A stretch of 64,000 bases of DNA from Trueperella bernardiae (GTDB lineage Bacteria > Actinomycetota > Actinomycetes > Actinomycetales > Actinomycetaceae). Shown one piece after another: positions 10,774 to 64,000 of this stretch (position 1 is the first letter of the stretch; every line of letters begins with the position of its first letter). The stretch is taken from assembly GCF_001469025.1 (NCBI RefSeq), contig NZ_LNIZ01000002.1, positions 124,001-188,000 on the forward strand, given 5' to 3'. A program made the translations under genes and the position numbers. The notes below the pieces were generated by a model. It made no database searches, was not told the DNA's origin, and was given only the letters and a program-made list of their open reading frames with translations.

Positions 10774-12732
10774 TCACGATCGCCTTGATGCCGCCACGAA
10801 ATCGTCCGGCTGCACGGGCTTGGAACGGCGGCCATCGCGCACTGACTTCACCAGGCCGATAAGGAACACGAGGCCCACGGCCCCGGCGATCACCACGGTG
10901 CCCACGTTCTCCCAGTCCGCCCGCACCCGCACGCGCAGCACGTCCTTAGCGCCGACCACCGTGCCGTCCGCGTTCGTCACCGTCACCTCCACGTCCAGGT
11001 TGCCCGAGCCGTGAGCCTCCACCGGCACCGAGACCGTGGTGGTCGACGACCCCGGCAGTGTCACCTCCACCGGCGACGGTGCGCGCAGGCGGATGTCCGG
11101 CACATCGAGGTGAACGGTTACGGTCACCGGCTGATGGAAGCCGTTCGTCACCTGCACGGGTAGTGCCGAACTTTCCGAGATGAGGTTGATCGTGGAGGTA
11201 GTGGAGACGTGGATCGTCTCGAGCTGGGCGGGCGTGGGCGCGATCGTGCGGATGAGGGCTTCGCGCCCGGACGGGTTGCCGCGCCACGACACGGAGGTCA
11301 GCTCCTGCGCCGCGGTGGTGGCGGCGGCCACCTTGGCATCGGCGTCGGGGAAGATCGCGGCCACGGCGCTGAAGGCGGCCAGTGCGTGGTCGATCGCGGT
11401 GACCTCCCCGCGCGTGAGCGCGCCGGAAGGTTCGGTGTCGGGCTCGGTGAGGACGCGCTCGGTGTCGTCCGGCTCGAGGCCAATGAGAGCTTTGACCGAC
11501 GACGCCGTCACCCAGCTTGCGTCCAGCACTGCGGCCACAGCCGCGCGGGCGGCGTCGCTCGCCCCCCGGGGCACGGCGAGGACGTAGGGGCGCGGATCGT
11601 TGGGGCGCTGGCGGTGGTGGACGGCGGAAAGGGCGACCGCGACCTGGCGGGTGTCGAGCGTGTCGAGGGCGACGTCGTCGCGGCCGATCACCTGCAACTC
11701 GCCGGAAAGCACGTCGGAAGCGAGGGAATTGGTGACCAGCAGCGGCTCACCCTGGAAGGTGGTGACGGCCGAGGGGGTGTAGGTGAGCGTGTCGGCGGGC
11801 GCGTAGTCGGCGTCGGGGACAAGGACGGTCATGCCCAGGTCGTGGGCGAAGGCGATGTCGTTGGCGGTGGGAGACGAGGCGGGCAGGAACACGGTGTTCG
11901 TGGCGAGCTCGCGCGCTTGCTGCTCGCGGTCGAGGGCGGACAGCGCGGAGATGTCCGCGTCATAGGCCGGCAGGGCGAGGAGGGTGGCGCGGTCCGTGCT
12001 TACCGGCAGCTCCCGGTCCACGGCCAGCGTGACGCCCGCGATGTCCCAGGCATCCACCTGCTTCGTGACGTCGGGGAGGAGGGCGTCGGTGTCGGAATCG
12101 GTGGCGGGGGCGTCAAGGAGCAGGTTGATCGGCTCGGAGCTGATCGCCGAGACGGGCACCACCGCTGTGGCCGGGAACGGGGTGAGCTCGGCGGAGGAGG
12201 CCACCACAATCATCGTGCGGTCAAAGCCGACCGGGCCGTCGTCGGTGGACAGCTCGATCTCAATGCCGCGCGGGCCCCACGTGAACTCGCCGGTGGGCCA
12301 GGGCAGCTCGGTGTCGGGAAAGCTGAGACGCAGCGTGATGGTCTGGCCGGGGGCGACGCTGCGGGAGATATCGGTGCGGGCGACGTCCCAAGAAGGGGTG
12401 ACGTCGGCCATCCAGCGATGCACCGAGAACTCGGAGACCGCGGTGGTGGCCTGCGCGCGCAGGTCGGCAGAGGTCAGGGTGAGCGGGGCGGTGCCCGTGT
12501 TCGTCACGTCCACCGACACCACCAGGTCCTGGCCCGCCTCCAGGACGGCGGGGGCGTCGGAGATGGTGACGGCGGGCTGCGCGGAGTCGGCTTCGGCGCT
12601 CGCGGTCTCGGAGCTGGTGCCCTGGGCGCCGGGCCGGGCGTCCGTCGTCGCGAAGGCGGGCCCGGAGGCAGACAGCGCACCGGGTATACCCACCACGAGC
12701 GCGGCGACCAGCGCCGCCACTAGGCGTTTCAT
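10774..12732 (-). CDS. DUF6049 family secreted/membrane-anchored protein
   Basis: This 652-residue protein begins with a signal peptide (MKRLVAALVAALVVGIPGALSA). It carries a long extracytoplasmic part with Ig-like strands (VSVDVTNTGTAPLTLTSADL) and ends in one transmembrane helix (VVIAGAVGLVFLIGLV) with a basic tail. It matches the position and architecture of the Rv3909-like protein between the NUDIX gene and murJ in Actinobacteria; function unknown but envelope-associated by context. I start at ATG 12732, which overlaps the NUDIX stop by 4 nt (ATGA) and is followed at once by the signal peptide. Open frame continues upstream but lacks family features. Confidence 0.82.
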   Translation of the reverse strand: MKRLVAALVAALVVGIPGALSASGPAFATTDARPGAQGTSSETASAEADSAQPAVTISDAPAVLEAGQDLVVSVDVTNTGTAPLTLTSADLRAQATTAVSEFSVHRWMADVTPSWDVARTDISRSVAPGQTITLRLSFPDTELPWPTGEFTWGPRGIEIELSTDDGPVGFDRTMIVVASSAELTPFPATAVVPVSAISSEPINLLLDAPATDSDTDALLPDVTKQVDAWDIAGVTLAVDRELPVSTDRATLLALPAYDADISALSALDREQQARELATNTVFLPASSPTANDIAFAHDLGMTVLVPDADYAPADTLTYTPSAVTTFQGEPLLVTNSLASDVLSGELQVIGRDDVALDTLDTRQVAVALSAVHHRQRPNDPRPYVLAVPRGASDAARAAVAAVLDASWVTASSVKALIGLEPDDTERVLTEPDTEPSGALTRGEVTAIDHALAAFSAVAAIFPDADAKVAAATTAAQELTSVSWRGNPSGREALIRTIAPTPAQLETIHVSTTSTINLISESSALPVQVTNGFHQPVTVTVHLDVPDIRLRAPSPVEVTLPGSSTTTVSVPVEAHGSGNLDVEVTVTNADGTVVGAKDVLRVRVRADWENVGTVVIAGAVGLVFLIGLVKSVRDGRRSKPVQPDDFVAASRRS

Positions 12733-13247
12733 TCGCGGCCCCCGTACAGGATCGCGCGGGCCATGCCCACAATGCGGCGTTCGTTGGGGTAGACCAGGCG
12801 GGTGGCGACCTTGTCGATGCGCACCCACTCCACGTCCTCAGCCTCCTGGTCCGGGTCGTTATCCACGGTCAGCTCGCCGGAGAGCGCCTCGAGGAGGAAG
12901 TGGTGGACGACCTTGTGCACGCGCTTGTCAGTGGAGGAAAACCAGTAGTCGATGGAGGCCAGGTGCATGAGGGCGCGGCCGAAGATACCGGTTTCCTCGC
13001 TGACCTCGCGCACGGCCGCCTGCTCGGGCGTCTCGTCGCCCTCGAGGTGGCCCTTCGGCAGGCACCACTCGAGGCGCCCGCCGCGATTACGCCGGGCGAT
13101 GACGGCAACGTAGGCCTGGCCGCCTTTGACCGAGACGATGACGCCGCCCGCGGACGTCTCGTTGACGACCGGCAGGTTGTGGATACGAACCACTGGTCGT
13201 CTGCGGCGCGACCCCCTGGGAGGAGGGGCCGGGAATCTTCTTGACAT
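12729..13247 (-). CDS. NUDIX hydrolase
   Basis: The Nudix box is intact: GHLEGDETPEQAAVREVSEETG fits Gx5Ex7REUxEExGU, binding Mg for hydrolysis of a nucleoside diphosphate linked to another moiety. The substrate is unknown. The protein is 172 residues if translation starts at Met 13247 (MSRRFPAPPPRG); a GTG at 13289 in the same frame is an alternative, and neither has a strong ribosome-binding site. It is the first gene of the minus-strand block and is divergent from pcnA with about 70 bp between them. This pairing is conserved in Actinobacteria. Confidence 0.88.
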   Translation of the reverse strand: MSRRFPAPPPRGSRRRRPVVRIHNLPVVNETSAGGVIVSVKGGQAYVAVIARRNRGGRLEWCLPKGHLEGDETPEQAAVREVSEETGIFGRALMHLASIDYWFSSTDKRVHKVVHHFLLEALSGELTVDNDPDQEAEDVEWVRIDKVATRLVYPNERRIVGMARAILYGGRE

Positions 13248-13317
13248 CTTATTTCTACTGTAGTGATCTAGGTCGAGGAAAGTGCTCACGCACCCGGTTT
13301 TCTGGCACTCTTAAGGA

Positions 13318-14805
13318 GTGACTGAACGCGATACCACTTCCTTGACGACGACGGACGCCGGCACGAACCAGCGCGCCCGGCTTCTCGTGCAGGGACACCG
13401 ATCCCTGTCCGATCTGCCTGAGGCAATTCTTGAACTAGGATCTATTTTCGCACGTTCCGGGCACGAATTGGCCCTCGTTGGCGGGCCAGTTCGAGATGCC
13501 TTCCTGGGCCGCGCTATTCACGACTTTGATTTGACGACGTCGGCGCGTCCCGATGAGACGATGGCCCTGCTCGGCGAGTGGGGCGACAAGGTGTGGGACA
13601 TCGGCAAGGACTTCGGCACGATCGGCGCGGCGCGCTCCGGGCTGGTCGTGGAGGTCACCACCTACCGCACCGAAACCTACGATCCGGCCTCCCGCAAGCC
13701 CGAGGTGGACTACGGCGACACGCTGGAGGGCGACCTCACGCGGCGCGACTTCACGGTCAACGCAATGGCGGTGCGCCTGCCCGAGCTGGCGCTCGTGGAC
13801 CCGTGCGGCGGCCTGGATGATTTGATCGACGGCGTGCTCGAAACCCCGGCCCCGGCCCGGCAGTCCTTCGACGACGACCCGCTACGCATCATGCGCGCCT
13901 GCCGTTTCGCCTCCCAGCTGGACTTCGACGTATCCGAGGAGGTCATGGGCGCGATGGCTGACATGGCCGCCCGCCTGGAGATCGTCTCCGCTGAGCGCGT
14001 GCAGGCCGAACTCGAGCGCCTCATGATCGGCGCCAACCCGCGCAAGGGCCTGGAACTCATGGTGGAGACGGGCGTGTGCGACGTCGTGCTCCCCGAATTC
14101 TCCGCGCTCCGCGAGACCGTGGACGAGCACGGGCGCCACAAGGACGTCTACGAGCACACCCTCACCGTGCTCGATCGCGCGATCGCGCTTGAGACCGACG
14201 ACGACGGCCCCGTCCCCGCCCCCGACTTCGTGTTGCGCTTCGCCGCGATCATGCACGACGTCGGCAAACCCGCCACCCGCCGATTCGAGCCCGGCGGCGC
14301 GGTGTCCTTCCACGCCCACGACATCGTGGGGGCGAAGATGACCCGCAAGCGCATGAATCACCTGCGCTTCCCCAAGGTGGTGACGAAGGACGTCTCCGCC
14401 CTGGTCGCCCTTCACCTGCGCTTCCACGGGTACGGCGAGCAGAAGTGGACGGACGCCGCCGTGCGTCGTTACGTCACCGACGCCGGCCCGCTACTCGAGC
14501 GCCTCAACCGGCTCACCCGCGCCGACTGCACTACCCGCAACCGGCGCAAGGCCGCGTGGCTGTCCGCCGGGATGGATGACCTCGAGGCGCGCATCGTTGA
14601 GCTGAAGAAGCAAGAGGAGATCGACGCGATCCGCCCCGACCTCGACGGCCAGCAGATCATGGACCTGCTCGGCCTCAAGCCCGGCCGCGAGGTCGGCCAG
14701 GCGCGCTCTTACCTCCTGGCCCTGCGCATGGAGGAGGGGCCGCTCGGGCAGGAGGAGGCCACGCGCCGTTTGCTGGCCTGGTGGGCCGAGCGGGGCGAGG
14801 AGTAG
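13318..14805 (+). CDS. pcnA: CCA tRNA nucleotidyltransferase / poly(A) polymerase family
   Basis: The 495-residue enzyme adds or repairs the 3'-CCA end of tRNA. The nucleotidyltransferase domain shows ALVGGPVRDAFLG and HDFDLTTSARPDE, with the two metal-binding Asp in DFD. RRDFTVNAMAV and the RFASQLDFDV neck follow. A C-terminal HD domain is seen at AAIMHDVGKPATRR, as usual in actinobacterial members. The start at GTG 13318 overlaps the only Shine-Dalgarno-like AAGGAG (13313-13318), so this mRNA may be leaderless. The gene overlaps the next start by one base. Confidence 0.93.
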   Translation: MTERDTTSLTTTDAGTNQRARLLVQGHRSLSDLPEAILELGSIFARSGHELALVGGPVRDAFLGRAIHDFDLTTSARPDETMALLGEWGDKVWDIGKDFGTIGAARSGLVVEVTTYRTETYDPASRKPEVDYGDTLEGDLTRRDFTVNAMAVRLPELALVDPCGGLDDLIDGVLETPAPARQSFDDDPLRIMRACRFASQLDFDVSEEVMGAMADMAARLEIVSAERVQAELERLMIGANPRKGLELMVETGVCDVVLPEFSALRETVDEHGRHKDVYEHTLTVLDRAIALETDDDGPVPAPDFVLRFAAIMHDVGKPATRRFEPGGAVSFHAHDIVGAKMTRKRMNHLRFPKVVTKDVSALVALHLRFHGYGEQKWTDAAVRRYVTDAGPLLERLNRLTRADCTTRNRRKAAWLSAGMDDLEARIVELKKQEEIDAIRPDLDGQQIMDLLGLKPGREVGQARSYLLALRMEEGPLGQEEATRRLLAWWAERGEE

Positions 14806-55260: not shown

Positions 55261-56687
55261 GTCCATGGTCGTGGTGTATCTGCCTTTCGATTTTGATTGG
55301 CGGGTGGTTGTTGGGTGGTTAGGCGGTGATTTCCTTGGGGTGGGCTTCGATGGTGTCGTGGTCGATGGTGTTGGTGGCGATGGTGAGCTTGACCTGCTCG
55401 AGGCTGGTGAGGGACATGTAGTGGTTTTGTTGGATCCACTCATCGTGTTGCTCGGCTAGGACCGCCCCAACCAGGCGGGTGATGGAGTCACGGTTGGGGA
55501 AGATCCCTACCACGTCCGTGCGGCGCCTGATCTCACGGTTGAGCCTTTCGGTGGGGTTATTGGACCAGATCTTGGTCCATACCGCCTTCGGGGCGGCGGT
55601 GAAGGCCAGCAGGTCATCAAGGCTCTCTTCAAGCTTGTCAGCCACGTCGGGGAACCTGGCCTGACAAAAGTTGACTACCTCCCTCGCCTGGTGCCACACG
55701 GTCTCCTTGTCAGGCTGGGCGAAAATGGTGTGGAACATCGCTGACAGGGTCGGCCACTGGGTCTTAGAGACCATGGAGGACAGGTTCTTAGAAAAATGGG
55801 TCCGGCACCGCTGCCAGCTCGCCTGGGGCAGGCACTCACTGACCGCGGCTTGGATGCCCATGTGAGCATCACTGGTGACCATGAACACCCCGCTCAGCCC
55901 GCGGGCGAGGAGGTCACGGAAGAACCCCGTCCAGGAGGTGATAGATTCACTGGTGGTCACCTGCATGCCCAGCAACTCCCGGTAGCCTTCGGCGTTGACC
56001 CCGGTCGCGAGCAGCACGCTGGTCTTAACCACTCGGCCCCCTTCACGGACCTTTATCGACAAGGCATCGCAGGCGATGAAGTAGTAGGGCCCGTTGTCTA
56101 GTGGTCGGGTGCGGAAGTCTTCAACGGTGTCATCGAGTTCCTTGGCCATCTGCGAGACCTGGGACTTCAATAGGTTGTCAATACCGAGCGTGCTTACCAG
56201 GTCGTTCATACGCCTGGTAGAGACCCCTTTGAGGTAGCAAATGGCAATGACACTGGTCAGGGCCCGCTCGGTGCGGCTACGGCGCTCTAAGAGCCAGTCA
56301 GGGAAGAACGAGCCCATGCGTAGCTTGGGGATAGCTACATCGATACTGCCCAGGCAGGTATCGAGCTGGCGGTGACAGTAACCATTACGGCTGTTGGTGC
56401 GCTCGGGTGAGACCGTGGCATAGGAGGCCCCGCATACGCTGTCTGCCTGGGCAGACAGGATCTGGTTGATGAAGTCGGCAAGCATCTGCCGCATCAAGTC
56501 AGGCGAGGCCTGGGTCAGTAACTCTTCAAGATAAGCAGTGTTGTCGATATGATGGGGATCGGCGGTCATCGTGATTGTATCCTTTCGAGGAGAATTGGAA
56601 GTTGATTCGAAAGGTACCCGCGATGACCGCCACTACACACGTTGGCACGCGGCCAGTCCCGGGTCCAGATACACCACACTAAAGGAC
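55261..56687 (-). mobile_element. IS256-family insertion sequence
   Basis: This ~1.43-kb element carries one transposase gene. Its ends form imperfect inverted repeats of about 22 bp: left GTCCATGGTCGTGGTGTATC and right (reverse complement) GTCCTTTAGTGTGGTGTATC, identical over GTGGTGTATCTG. I see no clear 8-9 bp target duplication, which could mean an old insertion or flanking rearrangement. The exact outer boundary is uncertain by a few bases. The transposase is intact, so it may still be active. Confidence 0.85.
55319..56569 (-). CDS. IS256-family transposase
   Basis: This 416-residue mutator-type DDE transposase is intact. It opens ELLTQASPDLMRQMLADFINQILSAQADSVCGA and has the IS256 block RNGYCHRQLDTCLGSIDVAIPKLR. 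The DDE residues are visible in FIACDALSIKVREG (Asp), VMVTSDAHMGIQAAV-like FMVTSDAHMGIQA (Asp) and SNNPTERLNREIRRRTDVVGIFPN (Glu). No frameshift or stop interrupts it. It lies inside inverted repeats at 55261 and 56687. Confidence 0.96.
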   Translation of the reverse strand: MTADPHHIDNTAYLEELLTQASPDLMRQMLADFINQILSAQADSVCGASYATVSPERTNSRNGYCHRQLDTCLGSIDVAIPKLRMGSFFPDWLLERRSRTERALTSVIAICYLKGVSTRRMNDLVSTLGIDNLLKSQVSQMAKELDDTVEDFRTRPLDNGPYYFIACDALSIKVREGGRVVKTSVLLATGVNAEGYRELLGMQVTTSESITSWTGFFRDLLARGLSGVFMVTSDAHMGIQAAVSECLPQASWQRCRTHFSKNLSSMVSKTQWPTLSAMFHTIFAQPDKETVWHQAREVVNFCQARFPDVADKLEESLDDLLAFTAAPKAVWTKIWSNNPTERLNREIRRRTDVVGIFPNRDSITRLVGAVLAEQHDEWIQQNHYMSLTSLEQVKLTIATNTIDHDTIEAHPKEITA

Positions 56688-57093: not shown

Positions 57094-57420
57094 TGGGTGC
57101 GCTCGGTAAGTGGAAATCGTACCTTATTCCAGGCGCCCAGACGTTGCGAAACAAGTTTGTGAGTGAGGCAGAGCCGTATGGCGTTGCTGATCCACGACTG
57201 TTAGAACAGCTTGAACGGCGGTTCTCGCTCACGAGGGTGCTCGCGCTTGTCCAGCACCCCCATCGAGGGGAGCTTCGACTACGCCCATACGAGGGCCATC
57301 CATATGCCCGCGAGGAGGCGCGACAGAACGGCACCCCACCGAAGTTTCAAGGGTGCCGTTCTTTGTATCCGATCGGCGCACGGACGCAAACCCGAGGCCG
57401 ATAGTTTCGGGTGTCGCTAG
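57093..57420 (+). pseudogene. Truncated, frameshifted Fic/DOC-family toxin remnant
   Basis: From ATG 57093 the frame reads YLIPGAQTLRNKFVSEAEPYGVADPRLLEQLERRFSLTRV, which matches the N-terminus of bacterial Fic proteins (LRNK..., ELE..., ...R...L). Near 57262 a frameshift is needed to reach GSFDYAHTRAIH, the F-D-x-x-H-x-x-x-I-H motif just before the Fic core. The catalytic HxFx(D/E)GNGR region is missing. What remains cannot AMPylate, so this is a dead toxin next to a dead antitoxin. Confidence 0.7.
57325..57362. terminator. Hairpin terminator between the Fic remnant and the cas operon
   Basis: AGAACGGCACCC (57325-57336) and GGGTGCCGTTCT (57351-57362) form a perfect 12-bp stem with a 14-nt loop. 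On the plus strand TTTG follows; on the minus strand it lies 55 bp past the cas5e stop but lacks a T-tract. It may stop transcripts from both sides. Confidence 0.65.
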
Positions 57421-58127
57421 AGCGGATTGAGCATTGACCTCACCGCGTCTAGCCACTCGCCTCGGCTACGCACGGTTGGGACCGTGGTAATCTCGGCCAG
57501 CGGCGGAACCCCGGGGGCAAGGTGCTTGAGCTGCAGCCGCGCCGAGGGCGCCCCGCTCCGATCGTGCGGGCGGTAGACGGGAATCTTCGCAAGGGCGGCC
57601 GGGCTACCTTCGCCAAGGACAAAGGGGAACGTGGGCGCGAACGCCTTCCTCCCCAAGTAGCTGGTGAACACAGGGTTCTTCAGAGCTTCCCGAATCTGGT
57701 CGACGTGCTCGTTGCTCGTGATTTGCACAAGGAACTCGCCGTTTGCGATGTAGGTTCGTGTGATGACTGCGGTGCGAGCCCCTTTCTTAGTGGGTCCGGC
57801 GGGTGTATGAGTGAGGGCGTCCTTAGCGCGAATGCTCCTACCAAGTGCGATGGATAGTCCTCGTTTGAATTCTTTTTCCACCGTGGGGGGATTGATGGTT
57901 TGGAAGTCGTCAGTGAGCATGCCGCGGTTGTCGTTGCGGACGATGAACACCAGGTCATCCAACCAGCTGGGCCATTCGCCTCGGTAATATCCGCAGGCTC
58001 CGGCGAGGAGGCCGACAAGGCCGGACCTCGTTGGCTCGAGCTCCGTGTGGACGATGTTTCCGGTCACCGACGCGCCGGCCCAAGACTGCAGCGGGCCGGC
58101 GAGCCGGACGTAGAAGGACGTGGTCAT
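57417..58127 (-). CDS. cas5e: Type I-E Cascade subunit Cas5e (CasD)
   Basis: The 236-residue protein starts FYVRLAGPLQSWAGASVTGNIVHTELEPTRSGLVGLLAGACGY, the Cas5e signature: L-x-G-P-L-Q-S-W and the Gly-rich S-G-L-V-G-L-L-A. DFQTINPPTVEKEFKRGLS and FTSYLGRKAFAPTFPF also fit. Cas5e caps the 5' handle of the crRNA in Cascade. Its ATG overlaps the cas7e stop by 4 nt (ATGA). It is the last gene of the minus-strand operon; cas6e, usually next, is instead on the plus strand. Confidence 0.95.
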   Translation of the reverse strand: MTTSFYVRLAGPLQSWAGASVTGNIVHTELEPTRSGLVGLLAGACGYYRGEWPSWLDDLVFIVRNDNRGMLTDDFQTINPPTVEKEFKRGLSIALGRSIRAKDALTHTPAGPTKKGARTAVITRTYIANGEFLVQITSNEHVDQIREALKNPVFTSYLGRKAFAPTFPFVLGEGSPAALAKIPVYRPHDRSGAPSARLQLKHLAPGVPPLAEITTVPTVRSRGEWLDAVRSMLNPL

Positions 58128-59225: not shown

Positions 59226-59849
59226 TTAGTTCTGAGCTTGTGATGTGGTGGTGGGGTCGGCAGGTTCTTGCCGTTGTGGGCGATAGAAATCGCGGATGAT
59301 TCGCAGACGGCGTTCACGAGAGGCTTGGGTAAGGCCGCGCCCCCAGTACACCAAGGTGGCAACGAGATCGACGTAGTCAATGGCTGGCGCCCGCTCGCTG
59401 CCACGGGAGGCAACGAGGAGGATCCGGCGAATCGTCATGGCGGCCTCGTCGAGAGACTGTGTGTGAATGTAGGCCAGACGGTTGCCGATCATTCCGGGAG
59501 AGTTCGGATCCAGAAGTTCGCGGTTGTTGTGCGCAACCATGCCGGCCCACTGGCCGAAACTACGACGCGGATAGCGCCCGTCGGAATCCGCGCTCGGGGT
59601 GAACGCGGGGATGGAGTCCTTGAACTCGGCGACCAGGGAGGCTCCGCGGAGGAGGGCCTGCTCGGTCTGCCGCGAGGCGTCCGCGGGCACGTGCGGGAGA
59701 ACGAAGGGGTAGGCATAAACCTCCGTTCCGGCAGTCAATCCCCTGCGTACCGACGCGATCTCCTTGGTGGAACGAGCTCGCGAATCGCCAGCTGGCAACG
59801 CCAATGCGCGTATGTAGTGTTGCCACGCCTTTTCGTTATCGTTACTCAT
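59226..59849 (-). CDS. cse2: Type I-E Cascade small subunit Cse2 (CasB/Cas11e)
   Basis: The 207-residue alpha-helical protein has GRYPRRSFGQWAGMVAHNNRELLDPNSPGM-like helices and a basic C-terminus (RGSERAPAIDYVDLVATLVYWGRG). It fits Cse2, two copies of which stabilise the displaced strand in the R-loop. Two adjacent Met codons (59852, 59849) overlap the end of cse1; I prefer 59849 for its spacing from GAAGGAG. The 3' end is 16 bp before cas7e. Confidence 0.88.
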   Translation of the reverse strand: MSNDNEKAWQHYIRALALPAGDSRARSTKEIASVRRGLTAGTEVYAYPFVLPHVPADASRQTEQALLRGASLVAEFKDSIPAFTPSADSDGRYPRRSFGQWAGMVAHNNRELLDPNSPGMIGNRLAYIHTQSLDEAAMTIRRILLVASRGSERAPAIDYVDLVATLVYWGRGLTQASRERRLRIIRDFYRPQRQEPADPTTTSQAQN

Positions 59850-61470
59850 CATCGTCTCCTTCAGACGCATTGACTGGGGAAATCCTTTGGTTCACGAGCC
59901 CTCTCAACAAGGAGTCGAGCCGTGAACGGGAGTGCGAGATCTGCGCGGGGTATTGACCAATGTGTGGCGTGGTGACGAAATCGAACGCCGCCAGCGCGGC
60001 GTCGCGCCCCCGCCAATACACCTCCGGAGGAATCTCCAGACCGTCCTGGGTGGCAGCAATCAGGTCTGCGTAGACGTCGTGGATCGAACGCCAGAAGGCG
60101 CTCGCGGCGTCGGCGCGCTGGTTCTTGAGAGGGTCGAGGACGTTGGGTACCTGGTTTTTCGCGGCGGCTTGCCTGTCCCCGACTCCGGACCGGCGGAAGG
60201 GCGCGACCACGAATTTGAGGAGGGACTGAATGAACTTGGCCTCGTCGGCAACAGCCTCGACGAACTCCTCGCCCAAGTTGAACGACCACACCGAGTCGTC
60301 GGGCATGAAGACTGACGACGCACGGATAGATAAAGACCCTGGCTCGCCCCCAATCTGATGGCGGATGAACATGAGGCGAGGGTCAGATGCTAGCAACGTG
60401 CTACCTGGGATGAGGATCGACGTCCGGGCGTGTTCCCTGGCGAGCGATATGTTGAGGTTAGCCGCCCACTCGACCGCGAGCTGAGTGGCGTCACGGCCGA
60501 AGTCGACGCGAACCATCTTGCCGTCGCGATAGAGGTAGAAAGGATCGGACAGGTTGCGAAGATCCCACCATGCTTTACGGCTATCCTTAGCTTCCTTACC
60601 TGTACCTTTCGCAACTCCGCGAGGGAGCCAGTTGCTCGGGACGCCGCCCCTCCTGACGCCGGCAAGCTCGCCCTCCTCCCAGCAGCACACAGCGGAGTTA
60701 GATGACCACGACGCCTTCCACAGAGGGTGCATGTCATTGTCTTCCTGTGACTGAGTGCCCGTCCTGTCTGCCCATGCGGGGAGGCCCGCGCCTGCCACCC
60801 ATGAGCTGGGGGTCATGTAGAACAGAGTTTCGAGAAGCGTCTCTCCCCACCACACAACTTCGGTTGCCGTGTTGTCTTTGCCGACAAAGCGGAAGCCGGG
60901 TGCGCCCATCTCGCACTTGTCGCCGTCGTAGCGAGTGTTCTCCGCTGGATAAAAGCAGTAGAAAACTGCGATGTGCAGAACCGCCTCGTGGAGGGGAAGT
61001 CTACCCGTCCCGGCGAAGCCAAGGTTCCAGAAGTCCTTACCTTCTTCAGACAGCTTGCTGGGTAGCAGCTTTGTGACGGGATCGTTGTTTGGGCCGATGC
61101 GCCGGCCCGTGTCATTCTTCTTCTGCTCCGGAAGGGGTGGCCGCTGGAGAAAGGGGTGAACCGGGTTGAAAAGGTGGGCTCCCGCGTCGAGATCCGCGAT
61201 CGCGCCATCGACCGCGCCTGCGGGAATGCCATTTTCAAGGATGTGAATAACCTGTTTGTACCGCGCCTCACCTGAGGTGTGTTCGAGGTGTCGAAAGGTG
61301 ACGGCGAGCACATGCGTGAGGATGCGTAGCTGGCTCGACACCGCGAACCCGGGCAAGGACAGGTCAAGCTTGCAATCGGGTTTGTGTGCGTTGAGCAGCG
61401 TGTCTCTCACGGTGGCGCGACCATCCTGACGATGGATCCATGCAACCTCGGAAAGCGCGTTGTCACCCAT
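59842..61470 (-). CDS. cse1: Type I-E Cascade large subunit Cse1 (CasA/Cas8e)
   Basis: The 542-residue subunit recognises the PAM and recruits Cas3. GDNALSEVAWIHRQDGRATVRDTLLNAH opens it, and HLFNPVHPFLQRPPLPEQ, LHIAVFYCFYPAEN and DPFYLYRDGKMVRVDFGRDATQLAVEWAANLNISLAREH are consistent with Cse1. ATG 61470 is the start because CAGGAGGAGGTCCT precedes it. Translation further upstream would read through the mini-CRISPR. It heads the cse1-cse2-cas7e-cas5e operon and is divergent from cas6e across ~205 bp. Confidence 0.95.
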   Translation of the reverse strand: MGDNALSEVAWIHRQDGRATVRDTLLNAHKPDCKLDLSLPGFAVSSQLRILTHVLAVTFRHLEHTSGEARYKQVIHILENGIPAGAVDGAIADLDAGAHLFNPVHPFLQRPPLPEQKKNDTGRRIGPNNDPVTKLLPSKLSEEGKDFWNLGFAGTGRLPLHEAVLHIAVFYCFYPAENTRYDGDKCEMGAPGFRFVGKDNTATEVVWWGETLLETLFYMTPSSWVAGAGLPAWADRTGTQSQEDNDMHPLWKASWSSNSAVCCWEEGELAGVRRGGVPSNWLPRGVAKGTGKEAKDSRKAWWDLRNLSDPFYLYRDGKMVRVDFGRDATQLAVEWAANLNISLAREHARTSILIPGSTLLASDPRLMFIRHQIGGEPGSLSIRASSVFMPDDSVWSFNLGEEFVEAVADEAKFIQSLLKFVVAPFRRSGVGDRQAAAKNQVPNVLDPLKNQRADAASAFWRSIHDVYADLIAATQDGLEIPPEVYWRGRDAALAAFDFVTTPHIGQYPAQISHSRSRLDSLLRGLVNQRISPVNASEGDDDE

Positions 61471-61510
61471 AGGACCTCCTCCTGTAGATGAAGAAAGCGT
61501 AACACAGGTA

Positions 61511-61564
61511 TTGACCGTCGTCCATAAATGTTCCACATATATTTTGGGTGTGTTATTGTGTTGA
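61511..61564 (-). promoter_or_regulatory. cse1 promoter containing a guide-matching protospacer
   Basis: On the minus strand TCAACA (61559-61564) and TATATG (61536-61541) form a plausible -35/-10 pair 17 bp apart, placing the start near 61529. From that position ATTTATGGACGACGG (61529-61515) matches the mini-CRISPR spacer ATTTACGGACGACGG at 14 of 15 bases, the mismatch being position 6. AAC lies directly 5' of the match, where a type I-E PAM should be. The -35 abuts the second mini-CRISPR repeat. Confidence 0.6.
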
Positions 61565-61640
61565 CAGTACCCCCGCTTTCGCGGGGAAGAGAGGCGCCGT
61601 CGTCCGTAAATGGAAATACCCCCGCGCGTGCGAGGAGGCA
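61563..61640 (-). CRISPR. Degenerate two-repeat mini-CRISPR (candidate cas-regulating guide RNA)
   Basis: Read on the minus strand, two 29-nt repeat-like units flank a 20-nt spacer (61592-61611). Unit 1 (61612-61640) has the stem CCTCGC-ACGC-GCGGGG and ends GTATTTCC. Unit 2 (61563-61591) has CCCCGC-GAAA-GCGGGG, a perfect hairpin, and ends GTACTGTC. Both fit the type I-E repeat plan: 5-nt start, 6-bp stem, 4-nt loop and 8-nt handle ending. Processing by Cas6e would give a crRNA-like RNA with handle GTATTTCC followed by the spacer, which matches the cse1 promoter. Confidence 0.65.
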
Positions 61641-61675
61641 CCTCCTGCAGGTTACCGTAGAGAAAGGGGAATGCC

Positions 61676-62332
61676 GTGTCCGAGAAGGTATTTCTTGCAA
61701 AATATCCGGTTCATTCAGCGCTTCGGCGCCCGCATGTTCATAAGCCGGCGCGCGGCTGGGACATCAACGATCCGGTATTTCGGCACCGTGCCGTCATGGC
61801 GCTCTTCCCTGAGTTTGAAGGAACCAAGCCGCGTTCCACAAACAATATTCTGTTCCGCCTCGACCTGATCCCGGGGCAGGCTCCATACTTCCTCGTCCAG
61901 TCGCGCGTGCGGCCGGAGAACCTCGACGGCGTCGACGGCCTCCAGATCAAGGAAGTGGAGATCCAGCAGATAGCGGCGGGGACGCCCGTCCGCTTCCGTG
62001 TTGCGATCAATGCGGTGAGGCGAAAGGGAACGGGCGGGGTGAGCCCCGTGCCGATGGAGGCTACGGACGGCGAGGTGGGCGTTCCCGAGTGGCTCGCGAG
62101 CAAGCTCGAAAGCGGCCTGACGAACGTGACAATCGTGAACCACACCAGGGCGGTTCTCGGAGGGGATCGGAGGGGTAAGACGCCGAGCGCCACGCACGTG
62201 GTGCAGGTCGACACGATCGACGGGGTCGCGGAAGTCTCTTCGCCCGAGGGCCTGCAGGAGCTTGTGCTCAAGGGAGTGGGCCGGGCCAAGTCCTACGGGT
62301 GCGGATTGCTGTCGGTGCAGCCGCTGAGGTAA
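61676..62332 (+). CDS. cas6e: Type I-E crRNA endoribonuclease Cas6e (CasE/Cse3)
   Basis: This 218-residue RAMP protein has two ferredoxin folds. The N-terminus KPARGWDINDPVFRHRAVMALFPEF and NILFRLD fit Cas6e, as do FLVQSRVRPENL and RFRVAINAVRR. The C-terminal Gly-rich loop is VLKGVGRAKSYGCGLLSVQPL, the classic G-x-G-x-x-K-x-x-G-x-G-L. It cuts at the base of the repeat hairpin. The start is GTG 61676 after GAAAGGGG. It is unusual in being split from the Cascade operon and placed 4 bp before cas3. Confidence 0.95.
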   Translation: MSEKVFLAKYPVHSALRRPHVHKPARGWDINDPVFRHRAVMALFPEFEGTKPRSTNNILFRLDLIPGQAPYFLVQSRVRPENLDGVDGLQIKEVEIQQIAAGTPVRFRVAINAVRRKGTGGVSPVPMEATDGEVGVPEWLASKLESGLTNVTIVNHTRAVLGGDRRGKTPSATHVVQVDTIDGVAEVSSPEGLQELVLKGVGRAKSYGCGLLSVQPLR

Positions 62333-62336
62333 GCGA

Positions 62337-64000
62337 ATGAAGACGCACGAGCGGGTGTGGGCAAAGCTCGATGGGGAGGGCACGACGTACCCGCTGCTCG
62401 CCCACCTCTTAGATTCCGCGGCTGTCGCCGGCGCGTTGTTCGATCACTGGCTGAGGCCCGGGCTCCGGGAACTTCTCGCGCGTGCTCTGGCGCCGGGGGA
62501 GTCCGAGGAGGCCGCGCGCGGCGTGGTGGAACTCCTGGTCGGGTGCCATGACCTGGGCAAGGCGTCCGAGGAATTCCAATACCAGCCGAGAATGGCAGGT
62601 CCACGCATTGACGCTGTTCGGCGGCAGCTCGAGGCGGAGGAGGGGGTGTCATTCGATAACCCCCAAGCTATTCTGAAGCGTGCCGGCAAGCGTGACTATC
62701 GCCGGCATGAGCGGGTAGGCGCCCTCTCCTTACAGGGTGCGATCCTCGATGAGAACTTCTCGGCGGCGAGGTACTGGAGGGTTATCCCGGCGCTCGGTCA
62801 CCATGGGCGTTACTCCCTGCCGGGAGAAGAGCTGCGCAGGAATACCGATCGAAGGCGCTACATCAGTCACGTCTTGTCGGAGCCTTGGAACACGATACGC
62901 CGCGATCTACTCGATGCGCTGTGCGAGGCAACGGGTCAGGGTTTTCCCGATGCGGATTCGCGGCACGGCGCGACCGAGACAATCCTGCTCTCGGGTTTGA
63001 CCGTCCTGGCCGACCGCATCGCCTCCCAAGAGGCCTTCGTGGCGGCAGGCAGCGCGGCACGGGGTACGGGCGAGCTCAGCCTGACGGATCCGAGGGCGTG
63101 GCTGGAGCGACGGCGTCGTGAAGCGCTCGCCCACATCGACGCGACGGTAGGCATCTACCGCGGATGGGGGAGCCCGGAGGCGGCGCGGGCGGCGATCCTC
63201 GGCGGGCACGAGCCGCGGCAGATTCAGGCCATCGCTGGTGAGGTGGGCGACGGCCTGCTCAGCGTCATGACCCCGACGGGCGGCGGCAAGACCGAGGCGG
63301 CGATGCTGCGGCACGCGAGCGCAAACGAGCGGCTCATTTTCCTCTTGCCCACACAGGCGACGTCGAACGCGCTCATGCGGAGGATCCAGAAGTTCTACGA
63401 GGGGACGCCGAACGTGGCGGCGCTCGCCCACGGCCTGGCCTCCGTCGAGGACTTCTATGCCACGCCGGTGACGGTGGAGAAGGGGCCAGAGTCGGAGCGG
63501 TATTCCGACGGTGGAGGCCTCTATCCCACTGACTTCGTCAAGAGCCGCAGCGCGCGGTTGCTAGCACCGGTGTGCGTGGGAACCGTCGATCAGGCGTTGC
63601 TCGGGGCGTTGCCCCGCAAATGGACGCACCTGCGATTGCTGGCGCTGGCGAACGCGCACGTCGTCGTCGACGAGGTCCACACCCTCGACCTGTATCAGAC
63701 GGAGCTTCTCCGCCCGATCGTGTCGTGGCTCAAGGCGACGAACGCGCGGGTCACGTTCCTGACGGCGACCATGCCGTCGTGGCAGCGCGAGACGCTGCTC
63801 GCGCATTACGGCGCCCCCGGCGAGTTGCCGGACGCGCACTTTCCGTCGATCGAGACACTCACGACGAGCGGCCAGCTGTTGCGCTCAGAGCCCGCAGCGA
63901 GGGAGGCGGTGCTGGACATCCAGCGCTCGGAGGAGACGATCGATCAGGTGCCCGAATCACACGTGCGCTGGGCGAGCCGGATGCGTGAGCGTTACCCGCG
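62337..64000 (+). CDS. cas3: Type I-E nuclease-helicase Cas3, N-terminal part
   Basis: The frame from ATG 62337 stays open to the end of the window (over 550 codons). The HD nuclease domain shows LLAHLLDSAAVAGALFDHWL and LVGCHDLGKASEEFQY. The SF2 helicase has Walker A MTPTGGGKTEAAM (about residue 315), LPTQATSNALMRRI, the DExH-type VVVDEVHTLD and FLTATMPSWQRETLL. Cas3 is recruited to Cascade R-loops to nick and degrade target DNA. It follows cas6e by 4 bp. The C-terminal helicase half and any cas1/cas2 lie beyond the window. Confidence 0.96.
   Translation, partial: MKTHERVWAKLDGEGTTYPLLAHLLDSAAVAGALFDHWLRPGLRELLARALAPGESEEAARGVVELLVGCHDLGKASEEFQYQPRMAGPRIDAVRRQLEAEEGVSFDNPQAILKRAGKRDYRRHERVGALSLQGAILDENFSAARYWRVIPALGHHGRYSLPGEELRRNTDRRRYISHVLSEPWNTIRRDLLDALCEATGQGFPDADSRHGATETILLSGLTVLADRIASQEAFVAAGSAARGTGELSLTDPRAWLERRRREALAHIDATVGIYRGWGSPEAARAAILGGHEPRQIQAIAGEVGDGLLSVMTPTGGGKTEAAMLRHASANERLIFLLPTQATSNALMRRIQKFYEGTPNVAALAHGLASVEDFYATPVTVEKGPESERYSDGGGLYPTDFVKSRSARLLAPVCVGTVDQALLGALPRKWTHLRLLALANAHVVVDEVHTLDLYQTELLRPIVSWLKATNARVTFLTATMPSWQRETLLAHYGAPGELPDAHFPSIETLTTSGQLLRSEPAAREAVLDIQRSEETIDQVPESHVRWASRMRERYP

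Follow-up and report, generated by a model that had tools for sequence, protein, structure and literature searches.

Cas-regulating RNAs of the CreR type, described as known in an earlier note on this DNA, are indeed on record for types I-B, I-E and V-A (Liu et al. 2023, Cell Host Microbe 31:1481, cited in PMC12737573 and PMC13131331). As these citing papers present it, CreR resembles a crRNA, originates from a mini-CRISPR whose repeats are degenerate, has limited complementarity to a cas promoter and uses the effector of its own system, all features that the mini-array described below appears to share. The latter differs from CreR, as portrayed there, by its location in a divergent cse1/cas6e gap, by a target that may serve two operons and by spacers that are often only 15-21 nt long. 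The other close relative is CreTA, with its antitoxin RNA CreA (PMC9458426), in which, as here, psiR1 is more diverged than psiR2 and the spacer is partly complementary to a promoter, and in which repression is mediated by Cascade, as it probably is here; in the present case, however, the target is a cas promoter and there is no toxin gene. CRISPR-derived RNA regulatory elements have also been surveyed systematically (Shmakov et al. 2023, Nucleic Acids Res 51:8150, cited in PMC10651486). The elements concerned are repeat-like RNAs in CRISPR-cas loci, as would be the one considered here, and the survey reportedly covers guides matching cas promoters. Furthermore, the long-form tracrRNA autoregulation of Cas9 credited to Workman et al. 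2021, and likewise scaRNA (type II), reportedly involve a CRISPR-derived RNA whose short match makes the effector a repressor and not a nuclease; they differ from the present case by their type II effector and their tracrRNA-derived guide.

The window, i.e. the whole stretch of 64,000 nucleotides analysed, carries a mini-array that is very probably a Cascade-loaded autorepressor of the CreR kind, acting without cutting on the cse1 arm of a type I-E locus and probably also on the cas6e arm. Type I-E CreRs have already been reported; the two-sided operator, the 15-20-nt spacers and the 15-nt limit to pairing may be new.

The type I-E locus and its mini-array

The locus is found at the end of the window, its two cas arms diverging around a 205-bp gap. 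It comprises cas8e, cas11e, cas7e, cas5e, cas6e, cas3, cas1 and cas2 with 29-nt repeats and 32-nt spacers, and its Cascade subunits are of type I-E throughout according to PADLOC. The right operon has the order cas6e-cas3-cas1-cas2 and is followed by the canonical array, which contains 13 repeats of 29 nt (CTCTTCCCCGCGCGAGCGGGGGTAATTCC) separated by 32-nt spacers, with a 61-nt spacing; cas1, cas2 and this array lie outside the window (L003).

57417-58127, minus strand: cas5, last gene of the left operon (PADLOC Cas5e)
58124 to about 59209, minus strand: cas7, left operon (PADLOC Cas7e)
59226-59870, minus strand: cse2, left operon (PADLOC Cas11e)
59842-61470, minus strand: cse1 (cas8e), first gene of the left operon, ATG at 61470 (PADLOC Cas8e, 1.1e-101; Pfam CRISPR_Cse1, 8.8e-10)
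61515-61532, minus strand: target, made of the PAM AAC (61532-61530) and ATTTATGGACGACGG (61529-61515), beyond psiR2
61563-61591, minus strand: psiR2, CTCTTCCCCGCGAAAGCGGGGGTACTGTC, with an intact 6-7 bp stem
61592-61611, minus strand: spacer, ATTTACGGACGACGGCGCCT, 20 nt versus 32 nt in canonical spacers
61612-61640, minus strand: psiR1, TGCCTCCTCGCACGCGCGGGGGTATTTCC, 29 nt, degenerate but alignable with the canonical repeat; hairpin CCTCGC-ACGC-GCGGGG, then the 5' handle GTATTTCC at 61619-61612
61676-62332, plus strand: cas6e, first gene of the right operon (PADLOC Cas6e; Pfam CRISPR_assoc, 9.2e-29)
62337-64000, plus strand: cas3, second gene of the right operon, continuing beyond the window end

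The Cse1 protein belongs to a divergent lineage, and the Pfam score listed above is poor. An N-terminal extension of Cse1 was considered, the frame of the window being open up to a GTG at 61641, and was rejected because in-frame stops separate the mini-array from the start codon in 15/15 relatives examined. A transposase-like ORF, assigned by eye to the IS256 group, was also observed about 850 bp past the end of cas5 (55319-56569, minus strand).

The mini-array, psiR1 - 20-nt spacer - psiR2 (61640-61563, minus strand), corresponds to the degenerate two-repeat mini-CRISPR that the earlier note had placed between cse1 and cas6e, reading toward cse1. Its repeats are degenerate relative to the canonical array and are located within the cas locus, as in CreR. 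The other claims made about the match also proved exact: the start of the spacer recurs at 61529-61515, guide positions 1-15 match the target at 14/15 with position 6 as the sole mismatch, AAC occupies the PAM position and mismatches resume from position 16. Among 300 dinucleotide shuffles of the 200 bp that follow, none reaches this score, and the seed pattern adjoining AC occurs only once in the 2.03-Mb genome. Limited complementarity of the spacer to its own cas promoter beside a PAM, another trait of CreR, is present (14/15 nt and AAC here; 17 loci). Downstream of the target, the next gene is cse1 in the window and in 15 other loci, at a distance of 46-105 nt.

The folded mini-array region is more stable than shuffled sequences (z = -3.3). 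In an alignment of 12 psiR1 sequences and one canonical repeat, all six pairs of the 6-bp psiR1 stem form in 13/13 sequences, with 15 doubly changed (compensatory) cells versus 4.7 in shuffles. Thus, the stem is kept by compensatory change across the mini-arrays of relatives, which also mostly retain the handle GTANTTCN. An Rfam search with the mini-array gave no family match. Two Rothia loci (L105 and L116) show a psiR1 hairpin with an enlarged loop or an extra arm and a canonical psiR2.

Guide and target in related genomes

A Cas6e query detected the locus in the same family, and a Cse1 alignment query in Rothia, Corynebacterium, Actinotignum, Arcanobacterium, Varibaculum, Mobiluncus and others. 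As for contig scans, the one run with Cas6e alone returned no matches and a second one, run with the Cse1 alignment, found loci; no further strong match emerged when 395 genomes of the class were searched. The comparison includes 17 non-redundant loci from at least six genera (Actinotignum, Arcanobacterium, Varibaculum, Rothia, Corynebacterium, the genus of the window and others), whose mini-arrays were manually aligned on the handle GTANTTCN before scoring by script. Most relatives found share the divergent cse1/cas6e gap; this layout, which the earlier note had considered possibly new, is not unique and is typical of an I-E lineage in Actinomycetaceae, Rothia and Corynebacterium.

Complementarity between spacer and promoter, which the earlier note had proposed to look for in relatives keeping the mini-repeats, is conserved and co-varies. 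Indeed, sequences vary between the 17 loci, and own spacer-promoter pairs match at 13.65/15 positions versus 5.16/15 for swapped pairs. For example, guide positions 7 and 10 differ between two Corynebacterium loci (L104 and L106) in spacer and target alike, and positions 1 and 7 have changed in both spacer and target between two Actinotignum loci (L008 and L012). The exceptions are one half of the split locus of Actinotignum timonense and Mobiluncus. In Mobiluncus mulieris (L021 / L117), the mini-array is kept and its match to the cse1 promoter is weak (by eye, positions 2-5, 7, 8 and 10 after AAC); this mini-array is perhaps a decaying or re-tuned CreR. The cas locus of A. timonense is split, its two halves lying far apart (L152, about 12100-13580, and L155; L012 and L107). 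The cse1 half has kept the mini-repeats and lost the good match, and in the cas6e half the mini-array and target now lie upstream of genes named by eye as an Xre-like regulator and an ImmA/IrrE-like gene, a foreign pair that might have been brought under Cascade control. The mini-array is dispensable, since it is missing from some relatives with the same divergent locus, namely Winkia, Neoactinobaculum, Actinobaculum suis, a MAG and G021; C. silvaticum has no mini-array and only one repeat remnant left.

The mismatches are far from evenly distributed. Over the 17 loci, their numbers at positions 1-15 are 0,0,0,0,0,9,0,0,1,1,0,9,0,1,2, positions 6 and 12 carrying 18/23 of them (binomial P = 3e-12, a test that assumes independent loci). 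With 12 representatives only, which lessens relatedness while some remains, these two positions still carry 15/19 mismatches (P = 2e-10). Positions 6 and 12 are those of the bases that Cascade flips out, and the pattern has the 6-nt periodicity of Cascade, in agreement with the earlier attribution of the position 6 mismatch to a flipped-out base. From position 16, about 70% of positions are mismatched, which is near random. Spacers of the mini-arrays range from 15 to 32 nt, 20 nt being commonest and 15-21 nt frequent (some lengths were set by hand), and pairing stops at about 15 even with 27-32-nt spacers, so that this limit is independent of spacer length.

The PAM is AAC in 8 and GAC in 9 of the 17 loci, with no exception. 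The canonical repeats end in C, as expected if base -1 of the PAM is C. A check of the PAM through canonical spacers, comparing four array regions with 50,697 phage records, provided no usable protospacer.

Pairs of the same kind are found by a filtered scan in 6/20 ordinary cas3-cse1 I-E loci of the order, versus 0.5% of shuffled loci, which makes the principle a broad one. GC-rich sequence made a loose hairpin-plus-seed scan too noisy, and restriction to I-E-like handles gave a clean one. The pairs from ordinary loci (L118, L127, L128, L130, L131 and L137) have mismatches mostly at positions 6 and 12 and a PAM AAT or AAC; two of them, L128 and L137, carry the target on the opposite strand.

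Promoters around the target and candidate mechanism

Three promoters are predicted in the gap and its borders.

61496-61524, minus strand: predicted cse1 promoter, with -35 TGGACG (61524-61519) inside the target, 17 bp, -10 TACGCT (61501-61496)
61531-61559, plus strand: predicted cas6e promoter, back to back with the former, with a weak -35 TTCCAC (61531-61536) touching the PAM and a TG-extended -10 TATTGT (61554-61559)
61654-61682, minus strand: predicted mini-array promoter, CGGACA (61682-61677), 17 bp, TACGGT (61659-61654), with a weak score

The target had first been located just past the -10 of cse1. This is wrong, as the better-supported promoter TGGACG-N17-TACGCT has its -35 in the target; indeed, in 14/17 loci the -35 of the best promoter toward cse1 falls at target offset +5 to +17 (11% expected, P = 2.5e-11), where it overlaps or adjoins the target. 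Toward cas6e, the best promoter lies at offset -2 to -4, touching the PAM, in 7/17 loci (3% expected, P = 4e-7). From these consensus matches, the target resembles a single operator set between back-to-back promoters, and it probably serves the cas6e promoter as well as that of cse1. In most relatives, the -10 element of the predicted mini-array promoter ends 33-42 nt before the spacer; the RNA would therefore start at about psiR1.

Leftward transcription from a promoter immediately before psiR1 would yield a crRNA-like RNA, and Cas6e would cleave both psiR1 and psiR2, releasing an RNA with the 5' handle GUAUUUCC and a 20-nt guide. Cascade, once loaded with this guide, would recognise the AAC PAM and pair with 14 of the first 15 target nt, a complementarity that is itself observed. 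By analogy with E. coli Cascade, the 15-bp R-loop would be long enough for binding and too short to recruit Cas3. In E. coli, 5 seed nt and a PAM suffice for binding, affinity is already maximal with 18 bp or fewer, and Cascade binds a protospacer with mismatches at positions 19-32 while neither interference nor priming follows (PMC5904413). In type I-E, slow cleavage persists with spacers that are 6 or 12 nt shorter (PMC7296934); a short spacer would thus not suffice to prevent self-cutting, and the safeguard more likely lies in the 15-nt pairing limit. Bound Cascade would lie over the cse1 -35 and, at many loci, over that of the back-to-back cas6e promoter as well, repressing cse1-cse2-cas7-cas5 and probably also cas6e-cas3-cas1-cas2. 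By analogy with CreR, repression would weaken whenever Cascade or Cas6e runs short, is engaged with normal crRNAs or is inhibited by an anti-CRISPR. An antisense action on the cse1 mRNA was ruled out, the guide having the same sense as cse1.

If the cas6e promoter is as predicted, its transcript would be antisense to the mini-array, a hint of mutual antagonism. An extended scheme would then combine a single CreR guide and a single operator silencing both cas halves, a cas6e mRNA suppressing the guide in a double-negative loop, and a truncated 15-21-nt spacer, possibly with a smaller Cascade, whose 15-nt pairing is under selection; taken as a whole, this scheme is rather unlikely.

Alternative explanations and significance

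The degenerate repeats, and the loss of the mini-array or of the match in some relatives, are what would be expected of a dying array remnant that accidentally took up a piece of its own promoter and has no function. Nevertheless, differing sequences in six or more genera still match their own promoter, the mismatches concentrate at positions 6 and 12 and compensatory changes keep the psiR1 hairpins, none of which decay would produce, and this origin is very improbable. A 15-mer present as two direct copies close to a promoter also looks like a pair of operators of a protein repressor, the hairpins being incidental. Such operators are still harder to believe in, as the 15-mer is wholly different from genus to genus, a repeat handle always precedes one copy and AAC or GAC always the other, and a 6-nt spacing of mismatches is what an RNA-DNA hybrid within Cascade would give, not a protein operator. 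A CreA-type antitoxin guide (CreTA or CrePA) repressing a toxin gene instead of cas genes would have the same psiR1-psiS-psiR2 anatomy with a partial promoter match (PMC9458426), and in A. timonense the target now precedes the Xre/ImmA-like gene pair. However, the first gene after the target is cse1 in all 16 loci mentioned above, unlike in CreTA and CrePA, and no toxin-like ORF was seen between target and cse1; a toxin-directed role is hence very improbable.

A narrower form, compatible with the core of the CreR reading, is a working CreR that controls the cse1 promoter only and leaves that of cas6e-cas3-cas1-cas2 unaffected. It has a real though lesser chance of being correct, given that the cas6e promoter is a predicted one, that the conserved offset is best in only 7/17 loci and that the -35 of the window is weak; against it, 7/17 far exceeds the expected proportion. 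Globally, covariation, periodicity, PAM and hairpin in relatives strongly support a Cascade-loaded, non-cutting CreR autorepressor. The claim that a crRNA-like RNA directs Cascade to silence its own operon is thus supported by covariation, 6-nt periodicity and a constant PAM, with expression, processing and repression as its predicted steps.

Type I-E loci of at least six genera would therefore keep, under selection, a guide against their own promoter, a conclusion drawn from sequence alone. The tolerated mismatches (positions 6 and 12, with an end at 15) would constitute a natural record of the base pairs that Cascade needs for binding without cutting, and these mini-arrays may offer compact natural silencing guides for actinobacteria. 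If it exists, the double-negative loop could switch CRISPR immunity on all at once. More largely, autorepression of this kind would predict when the host bacteria, among them several commensals or opportunists of humans, step up their CRISPR defence, for example upon a block of Cascade by an anti-CRISPR.
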